Source of the DNA: Prochlorococcus sp. AG-347-I06
GTDB taxonomy: Bacteria > Cyanobacteriota > Cyanobacteriia > PCC-6307 > Cyanobiaceae
NCBI GenBank assembly: GCA_003281605.1
Contig: QCBM01000004.1
Span: forward strand, 62,001-126,000
DNA length: 64,000 bases
Direction: 5' to 3'
Shown here: positions 20,984-23,903 of the stretch, piece by piece
How the letters are laid out: each line of letters starts with the position of its first letter
Position numbering within the stretch: the first letter of the stretch is position 1
The notes under the pieces: generated by a model
The model's input: the letters and a program-made list of their open reading frames with translations, nothing else
Told to the model about the DNA's origin: nothing
Databases searched by the model: none
Translations under genes and position numbers: made by a program

Positions 20984-21244
20984 CTAAGATTTTTTTTGTA
21001 ATAGTTTAACGCCTGATATTATTGAGATTATTGAAGCTATACCAAGAAATATCGAGTAAAAAGGTTGCAAATTAATAATGCCAAAATTACCCGTATGCCA
21101 TTTTATTAGCCAAAAAGCATCTACTCCTAATGGTTGAAGAATACTATAAATAGTCCCAGATACAATAGTAATTAGTAAGGGGATTGCTGAAATTGCGGTT
21201 ATTTTTCTGTGAATTTTTCTTTGATTTGTTTTTAATTTTTCCAT
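20984..21244 (-). CDS. two-to-three-helix membrane protein, PepSY-associated type
   Basis: 86 residues. RKIHRKITAISAIPLLITIV resembles the first helix of PepSY-associated membrane proteins, and KWHTG followed by FYSIFLGIASIISIISGVKL resembles their later helices. It is the last gene of the seven-gene minus-strand DUF411 operon, and its ATG directly abuts the preceding stop. The resemblance is by eye. Confidence 0.6.
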   Translation of the reverse strand: MEKLKTNQRKIHRKITAISAIPLLITIVSGTIYSILQPLGVDAFWLIKWHTGNFGIINLQPFYSIFLGIASIISIISGVKLLQKKS

Positions 21245-21469
21245 CTATTTCCTCAAATAGATATGTAATTCTTTTTCGTTTTTGCATGGCATCCATTTAT
21301 CTTGATTCTTATGTATTCCTTCGCAACCAAGTTCTAAAGATCTATTTTCGGCTTCCTCTTCAGAAAGAAATGTCCCCCTCATATGAGCATACGAATAACT
21401 ATTGAAATTAAGAGATAAGGAAAATAAAAAAATAAAAAATTTAAAATTTCTAAGAATAATATCCATCAT
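21245..21469 (-). CDS. secreted DUF3721-type protein, 74 residues
   Basis: A signal peptide (FKFFIFLFSLSLNFNSYSYA) precedes a short domain with EEEAENRSLELGCEGIHKNQ and DKWMPC, the pattern I associate with DUF3721 of marine cyanobacteria. The two Cys and His could bind a metal or form a disulfide in the periplasm. It lies 9 bp after the DUF411 gene and directly before the PepSY-like gene. Confidence 0.7.
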   Translation of the reverse strand: MMDIILRNFKFFIFLFSLSLNFNSYSYAHMRGTFLSEEEAENRSLELGCEGIHKNQDKWMPCKNEKELHIYLRK

Positions 21470-21478
21470 TTCAAATAA

Positions 21479-22018
21479 TTATTTGTATTGTGAAGAGATT
21501 TTATCAAATATTTTTGTTTTGCCAGTTTTACTAAATGAAACTACTTTGTAGTTCTCATAATCATGAGAGTGCGATTCATGAGAATGCATTTCCATCCCTG
21601 GAGAGCCAAGTGGCATTCCTGGAACGGCTATCCCATTTATCTTTGGTTTTTCTTTAAAAAGTTTGTTGATTGATTCAATTGGGACATGTCCTTCAATTGT
21701 ATAGTTAGCTATTTGAGCAGAGTGACATGATCTCAGATTATTGGGAATTTGATATTGGTTTTTAATTAATGAAACATCTTCAACTATATTATCAACAACT
21801 TCTAATCCATTATCTCTTAAATGATTGATCCATTTTTTGCAACAACCACATGATGCTGATCTGTGAGAAATAACTTTTGGGATATCTATATTTTCTTGAG
21901 TTAAAGCAATACTCTTATTTGGATTAATTATATTTGCAAAAAGAATCCCAGAAAAAATTAGATAATTTAAAGATCCTCTTTTAATGAATATTTTATTAAG
22001 TGCCGTACTAATTACCAC
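21479..22018 (-). CDS. DUF411 periplasmic metal-binding-type protein
   Basis: 179 residues with an N-terminal hydrophobic signal or anchor (about residues 18-38). The DUF411 core carries SCGCCKKWINHLRDNG, then LRSCHSAQIANYTIEGHVPI and GIAVPGMPLGSPGMEM, the usual Cys, His and Met ligands. A His-rich HSHESHSHDYENYK segment follows. DUF411 proteins are often encoded with copper-handling genes. Here the operon partners are MauE-like, DUF3721 and PepSY-like proteins, suggesting periplasmic metal or thiol chemistry. Confidence 0.85.
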   Translation of the reverse strand: MVISTALNKIFIKRGSLNYLIFSGILFANIINPNKSIALTQENIDIPKVISHRSASCGCCKKWINHLRDNGLEVVDNIVEDVSLIKNQYQIPNNLRSCHSAQIANYTIEGHVPIESINKLFKEKPKINGIAVPGMPLGSPGMEMHSHESHSHDYENYKVVSFSKTGKTKIFDKISSQYK

Positions 22019-22067
22019 GATTAAATTTAATATTTAAATTAAACATAAATGAAAATTTATTAAACCG

Positions 22068-22520
22068 CTATTTAATCAAAATTAAAACACTCATAATTGC
22101 CATTAAAAGATTTTCGATAAAACTAATAATTCCCAAAGGAGTTTTTGCATATCCACCAATACATGCACAATTTAATTTTAATTTATCCAAATAAACAGCC
22201 TTAAATACTGAAATCATTCCAGAAATTCCTAAAACTAAAGCAATAAAAATAATTAGAGAAGGTGGAGAAGAATTAAGAAAACTTATTCCAATTAATAATT
22301 CGCAAAAAGGAAAAATATATATCCATCCATCAAATTTAGAGGATATTAAATCATATTTCTTATAACTTGTTCCAAAAGCTTCAATATCCATAAGCTTGAG
22401 CATTGCTAAAAGACAAATTGATATCCCCATAAAAATTTGGAAACTTTTGAGCAATGAAATGGTTATCAGAAATGAAGTACCAAAGACTGCAATTAAGGGA
22501 GAAAATGACTTAATCTTCAT
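22068..22520 (-). CDS. MauE/DoxX-like redox-associated membrane protein
   Basis: 150 residues with four membrane helices, a Pro/Gly pattern and a short loop with NCACIGG before KTPLGIISFIENLLMAIMSV. MauE-type proteins maintain thiol or disulfide state for periplasmic partners. Its gene lies 2 bp after the 76-residue gene and 49 bp before DUF411. The Cys-Ala-Cys motif is the likely redox or metal site. The subfamily assignment is by resemblance. Confidence 0.7.
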   Translation of the reverse strand: MKIKSFSPLIAVFGTSFLITISLLKSFQIFMGISICLLAMLKLMDIEAFGTSYKKYDLISSKFDGWIYIFPFCELLIGISFLNSSPPSLIIFIALVLGISGMISVFKAVYLDKLKLNCACIGGYAKTPLGIISFIENLLMAIMSVLILIK

Positions 22521-22522
22521 TT

Positions 22523-22753
22523 TTAACTTTTAAGGATAGAGTCACAAATACTAGATGGGTTTGCTTGTTTAATTATTTTTAGTCTTTTGATAAGTTTGTC
22601 TCGATCTATTTGATGTTTTAAATATTTAATACATAAATTTTTCTCCTTATATACCTGCGCTATTGGAGTAATCTTTAAAGCAATTGCAAAAGTACCAATA
22701 ACTAAAAGAATGTTTGTAGCAAGTCGAATGTTTGGCCGAAAATTAGATCTCAT
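22523..22753 (-). CDS. small membrane-anchored protein of the DUF411 operon, 76 residues
   Basis: One N-terminal helix (LATNILLVIGTFAIALKITP) then a basic domain with two Cys (EKNLCIKYLK and PSSICDSILKS), probably periplasmic. Its ATG overlaps the stop of the 38-residue ORF (ATGA) and its stop is 2 bp from the MauE-like gene, so it is tightly coupled. Unknown function. Confidence 0.65.
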   Translation of the reverse strand: MRSNFRPNIRLATNILLVIGTFAIALKITPIAQVYKEKNLCIKYLKHQIDRDKLIKRLKIIKQANPSSICDSILKS

Positions 22754-22866
22754 TCGTATTCTTTATCTCTGTCAATAACTTCCCTTAAATATATATCTTT
22801 TAGCTCGTCATTGTATCCGTTTTCTTTCGCAAATTTCTCTAATTCCTTCAACTCTTTTTCTGTCAT
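22750..22866 (-). CDS. acidic microprotein of the DUF411 operon, 38 residues
   Basis: MTEKELKELEKFAKENGYND followed by ELKDIYLREVIDRDKEYE. It is a single charged helix-turn-helix-like peptide. TAATG overlap with the upstream ORF and ATGA overlap with the downstream ORF strongly suggest translation. Not in the ORF track. Confidence 0.65.
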   Translation of the reverse strand: MTEKELKELEKFAKENGYNDELKDIYLREVIDRDKEYE

Positions 22867-23009
22867 TAAGCAGATTTGGATATATTGTTTTTCATATCTT
22901 CAATTTGGTTGATTAATTCATCTAACCATTCTGTATTATTTTCGGATCTTTTCTTAAGATATGTAATTTTAGGTTGATTTATTTCTAGTGTCTCATAATC
23001 TCCGCTCAT
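22866..23009 (-). CDS. first small gene of the DUF411 operon, 47 residues
   Basis: MSGDYETLEINQPKITYLKK, then RSENNTEWLDELINQIEDMK and NNISKSA. It is soluble and charged. Its stop overlaps the next start (TAATG). A pair of palindromic sites lies upstream in the divergent promoter region. Function unknown. Confidence 0.6.
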   Translation of the reverse strand: MSGDYETLEINQPKITYLKKRSENNTEWLDELINQIEDMKNNISKSA

Positions 23010-23702: not shown

Positions 23703-23903
23703 TTATGTAAATTTTAAAGGGTAATCGATATTGTTTGGTTCTAAATGTTTTACATAACATGTTGTTGTGCAATCTACTCCCTCACTATTGATGCTACAAG
23801 AAGTTATGCATTCAAAAAAACTTTCCAAAGCATCTGAATCTTTAATATTTGAATAAATGTCATTTTTCATGTTCAATCTTCCATTCTGAAGCTTATCTAG
23901 CAA
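23703..23903 (-). CDS. small Cys-rich conserved hypothetical protein
   Basis: 66 residues from 23903, or 55 from ATG 23870 (MKNDIYSN), which I favour slightly. The core FFECITSCSINSEGVDCTTT followed by CYVKHLE has four Cys in C-x3-C-x8-C-x4-C spacing, suggesting metal binding or two disulfides. The FxEC(V/I)T.CS pattern recurs in marine picocyanobacterial proteins. Function unknown. Confidence 0.65.
   Translation of the reverse strand: MLDKLQNGRLNMKNDIYSNIKDSDALESFFECITSCSINSEGVDCTTTCYVKHLEPNNIDYPLKFT

Follow-up and report, generated by a model that had tools for sequence, protein, structure and literature searches.

Between positions 20984 and 23009 of the window, i.e., the 64,000-nucleotide stretch of Prochlorococcus sp. 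AG-347-I06 contig QCBM01000004.1 analysed here, seven minus-strand genes read from the sequence as open reading frames (A to G, Table 1) fill the DNA. They raise the question whether they form a single functional unit and, if so, which substrate it handles. An initial annotation had proposed an operon for a small dedicated periplasmic metal or thiol system, with the first genes joined by TAATG and ATGA overlaps and a 2-bp gap. The ORF coordinates agree with this architecture, and short gaps separate E, F and G. Purifying selection acts on all seven genes. Since dN/dS lies between 0.17 and 0.36, all of them, including the ORFs of 38 and 47 aa, can be taken as real genes rather than chance ORFs.

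Table 1. The seven genes of the operon with their window coordinates (dN/dS from 49-81 Prochlorococcus loci)
Gene	Position	Strand	Length (aa)	dN/dS	Junction	Product and remarks
A	22866-23009	-	47	0.17 (77 loci)		predicted cytosolic; clade-local
B	22750-22866	-	38	0.24	TAATG with A	clade-local; frameshifted in some loci
C	22523-22753	-	76	0.25	ATGA with B	one N-terminal membrane helix; Cys C41 and C70
D	22068-22520	-	150	0.17	2-bp gap after C	MauE-family membrane protein
E	21479-22018	-	179	0.36		putative CopG (DUF411); signal peptide
F	21245-21469	-	74	0.31		secreted DUF3721 protein
G	20984-21244	-	86	0.18		two-helix PepSY_TM-like membrane protein

As had been anticipated, five products look secreted or membrane-bound: judged by eye, each of C, D, E, F and G carries a signal peptide or membrane helices. 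The family names first given to D (MauE), E (DUF411) and F (DUF3721) stand in Pfam, but PepSY for G falls below the cut-off and is better worded as PepSY_TM-like. Gene A has no family above the Pfam cut-off and none in NCBIfam or PHROGs, and a scan for promoters and terminators gave sites no more numerous than in shuffled sequences. At 22006-22004 the window reads ACG where CopG of relatives has its ATG start, and a C-to-G change within 22004-22020 creates a GTG (22018) four codons upstream of the lost ATG. Because the relatives' start codon is missing, E probably starts at this GTG. Upstream of the operon, 23703-23903 encodes a small protein that contains the CX3C pattern twice (ECITSC...DCTTTC); it is conserved next to the operon in most related loci.

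It is highly improbable that the seven are unrelated island genes lying side by side with no common function. A and B are indeed clade-local, and the site of the module varies, but the genes overlap or are tightly spaced and are under purifying selection, and D, E, F and G recur together across the family. A phage origin was also considered and rejected, as viral contigs contain no relative of CopG and no gene of the operon has a PHROG match. The sole viral-contig match for G (L216) carries an integrase-like gene, a DUF305 gene, F and G, and may be more like a mobile bacterial copper island than a phage.

The substrate is best approached through gene E. Its product matches Pfam DUF411 with an E-value of 9.6e-25 and, over residues 51-170, the solved copper protein CopG (6WIS/6WJE; phmmer, 9.2e-29). 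It displays the motifs CGCC (57-60), SCHS, EGHVP and GMPLGSPGMEM; the CGCC and GMPxGSPGMEM motifs align with 6WIS/6WJE, and the CxCC cysteines are conserved at 98-100 % in 55 CopG copies. By homology, the product of E is a CopG with the predicted copper-cluster CxCC and Met motifs. According to later papers, CopG holds a tetranuclear Cu cluster through CxCC and two Met, contributes to copper resistance and has been proposed to oxidise and transfer Cu(I) (PMC7558416, PMC8456105). In Rhodobacter, oxidase maturation proved not to depend on the CopG homologue CutG (PMC8456105).

DUF411 occurs in 48 of 151 genomes of the same family, from which 40 DUF411 loci were read together with 17 from relatives. 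Among the loci of the family picked by DUF411, the 35 from outside Prochlorococcus contain genes for a multicopper oxidase (MCO, 16 loci), DUF305 (16), MerR (15), a P-type ATPase (11), G (14), F (13, each with G) and D (8). In marine Synechococcus (L096, L099) the gene order is two-component system, CopG, glutaredoxin-MauE fusion, MCO, MerR, DUF305, F, G and CopG, and RND pump or P-type ATPase genes are found in several Synechococcus copper clusters. In such clusters DUF411 genes neighbour copper genes; on the other side, in about half of the CopG loci from Synechococcus the stretch read shows no further copper gene. Two CopG clades coexist inside one copper cluster in L096, L099 and L102, one linked to MauE and the oxidase, the other convergent with F-G.

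The CopG tree places the Prochlorococcus proteins, with a support of 1.0, inside the clade of MCO/MauE-linked CopG. Because of this position and the shared D, E, F and G, the Prochlorococcus operon looks like a condensed descendant of a Synechococcus-type cluster. A multicopper oxidase was found neither in the operon nor in any of 87 Prochlorococcus genomes, DUF305 in none of 19, and the operon includes no MerR, two-component system or pump. The lack of a metal pump had been noticed from the start; the genome's one P1B-type copper ATPase, with GMKCGGC and CPC motifs, is located on another contig.

Since E is a CopG by sequence and homologues of D, E, F and G reside in Synechococcus copper clusters, the most likely reading is that of a streamlined, oxidase-free copper operon. 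It is probably a periplasmic unit for copper redox or detoxification, derived from a marine Synechococcus copper-resistance cluster. Homology and context point strongly to copper as the substrate, which supports the idea of a dedicated periplasmic metal or thiol unit and narrows it to copper. Alternatively, the operon might encode a set of chaperones that supply plastocyanin or cytochrome oxidase with copper where the water is poor in it. CopG has indeed also been proposed to transfer copper to cuproproteins (PMC7558416), and in Prochlorococcus there is no multicopper oxidase that would have to be protected or fed. However, such a delivery role is unlikely given that CopG is absent from 44 of 87 near-complete genomes, all of which should need plastocyanin and the oxidase, and that the relatives' genes sit in resistance clusters with pumps and an oxidase.

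The genes of the operon differ widely in their constancy. Among 80 named Prochlorococcus loci picked by G (mostly single-cell genomes, with one isolate, MIT 9314), all seven genes are intact as one block in 43. Another 20 show the arrangement ABC--FG, 18 of them having C fused immediately ahead of the F start, and others either miss C and D or have a frameshift in B, C or D. C-D and D-E have been lost repeatedly; MauE and CopG disappeared on several occasions from loci that retained F-G, and in a tree built from the adjoining DNA CopG loss needs at least 4-5 changes. A and B occur in Prochlorococcus only, and there in just a part of the genus. When true G is defined by an E-value below 1e-20 and the weaker paralogue is ignored, it is found in 73 of 87 near-complete Prochlorococcus genomes and CopG in 43. 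G occurs without CopG in 30 of these genomes, and CopG is always accompanied by G (43/43; Fisher p 3.6e-5, a value that ignores relatedness). Because the 80 loci were chosen by G, the constancy of F-G is also drawn from the loci selected by DUF411: there, every Prochlorococcus copy comes with both genes. One genome (G024) holds both arrangements, ABC--FG (L223:4167-5128) and, at another site, CDEFG (L030:6001-7762).

Since MauE and CopG were repeatedly lost, A and B are clade-local and CopG is never found without G, the constant core is F-G, a strict gene pair, and not an indivisible seven-gene system; CopG/MauE is an add-on. The view that the seven genes stay together, which the initial annotation would have given up had they separated in other genomes, thus holds for F-G and only in part for the full set. 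The loss of members weakens the seven-gene claim in part and leaves the copper reading untouched. The dN/dS of E is the highest of the seven, and D and E are frequently lost or broken, which suggests that the benefit of D/E is conditional.

D scores 39.8 bits against Pfam MauE (6.7e-10; curated cut-off 27) and is 43-51 % identical to Synechococcus glutaredoxin-MauE fusions over their membrane part, and its NCAC motif (C118, C120) is invariant in the alignment. By sequence, D is the membrane part of such a fusion, the Prochlorococcus protein having lost the glutaredoxin domain. C precedes MauE in nearly all MauE-bearing Prochlorococcus loci, and both of its cysteines are conserved in 14 of 15 alignment rows, the exception being a truncated copy. 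The AF2 model of D is of moderate quality (pLDDT 75.6) and retrieved no significant match in a fold search of the PDB, with VKOR-like entries among the top ones (E>1). A literature search gave nothing relevant on MauE with glutaredoxin and copper. MauE and the glutaredoxin fusion are redox families, and the Cys pairs conserved in C, D, E and F would also suit a general periplasmic MauE-type thiol/disulfide system that folds small Cys proteins, copper being incidental. This is quite unlikely, as no copper-cluster motif is missing from E, copper genes surround the homologues in Synechococcus, and F-G remain where MauE or CopG is gone.

F matches the whole 33-residue Pfam model of DUF3721 (3.1e-16, 59.3 bits, curated cut-off 27). 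In 31 of 32 copies, a His directly follows the predicted cleavage site (SHA/H, SYA/H, WS/H), judged by eye with the -3/-1 rule, and a conserved CxxxH...WMPC comes after it. Copper ligands of the N-terminal His type are known, for example from CopC and LPMO. G reaches only 17.1 bits against PepSY_TM (E 0.005; curated cut-off 28.8), but a distant homologue (L033:6771-7070) passes the cut-off with 31.5 bits (2.1e-7). R9, H12, W45, H50 and N58 of G are invariant in the alignment, and its AF2 model (pLDDT 85.7; helices 2-39, 44-50 and 60-83) comprises two membrane helices and a short amphipathic connecting helix. A fold search of the PDB with G yielded non-significant matches only, and a profile search of PDB sequences nothing useful. 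The literature searches found no paper on DUF3721, nothing relevant on PepSY with copper in cyanobacteria, and nothing on the F-G pair. The N-terminal His and CxxxH...WMPC of F and the two His of G are candidate ligands.

That F and G constitute a ferric or haem-type reductase pair, an iron system incidentally linked to copper genes, is improbable. G does resemble PepSY_TM, and F-G are independent of CopG in many genomes, but the Synechococcus pair adjoins copper genes, and a cyanobacterium from a different family has G beside CopG and MCO (L033) or near MCO and CopB (L031). Tentatively, F-G could instead be a new minimal two-protein copper module of picocyanobacteria which, with or without CopG, handles periplasmic copper without a multicopper oxidase.

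Several relatives of the two genes lie elsewhere. The window's genome encodes a distant 102-aa paralogue of G with the same His pattern next to gltX and the gene for ribosomal protein L19 (L217:5189-5497). It corresponds to the second, weaker match in most Prochlorococcus genomes searched and is probably a core mini-PepSY gene. A second DUF3721 protein of the same genome (L218:5076-5498; 140 aa, glycine/valine repeats) is found beside hisS, without G. In addition, an inverted partial copy of about 90 bp covering the F end and G start (L027:13253-13342) lies 3.5 kb from an intact operon.

How might the streamlined copper unit work? CopG would capture Cu(I) on its CxCC/Met cluster and oxidise or hold it, in place of the missing oxidase. 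MauE, together with C, whose Cys pair would stand in for the lost glutaredoxin domain, could exchange thiol electrons with CopG. F would bind copper outside the inner membrane via its N-terminal His, Cys/His and Met-Pro-Cys, and G, possibly a small b-haem protein, may anchor F or pass electrons to or from it through the two invariant His. Cu(I) would thus be taken by CopG and F, with electrons running via the MauE/C Cys pairs and the His pair of G. F-G could also work without CopG/MauE, an add-on that some lineages lost.

Prochlorococcus was the most copper-sensitive of three picophytoplankton groups compared (PMC13374865), and the operon is a concrete candidate for strain-level differences towards copper: CopG is present in about half of the near-complete genomes and F-G in most, and several lineages amount to natural MauE+CopG deletions. 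Moreover, the operon joins three poorly known families to copper, namely DUF3721, the mini-PepSY_TM proteins and glutaredoxin-MauE.

Compared with known systems, the operon is closest in kind to the CopG copper-resistance clusters. Like cutFOG of Rhodobacter and the Synechococcus-type CopG-MCO clusters, it places CopG next to genes found with copper functions, and the latter clusters also hold homologues of D, E, F and G; however, it lacks their MCO, MerR, DUF305, two-component system and pumps. E aligns with CopG/CutG (DUF411, PF04214; 6WIS, 6WJE) and keeps both motifs, but belongs to a genome without multicopper oxidase, where its linked genes are those for MauE, DUF3721 and a mini-PepSY protein rather than cutF/cutO. 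D corresponds to MauE (PF07291) and the membrane part of the glutaredoxin-MauE fusions, NCAC included; the glutaredoxin domain of the Synechococcus proteins is missing, and a separate Cys-pair gene, C, precedes D instead. F fits the full DUF3721 model (PF12518) and adds the conserved His at its predicted mature N-terminus. G shares with PepSY_TM (PF03929) the His at the start of TM1 and the His-x-Gly motif before TM2, but has 86 aa, two helices and no PepSY domains. The uncharacterised F-G pair is the most interesting part of this otherwise known kind of cluster.
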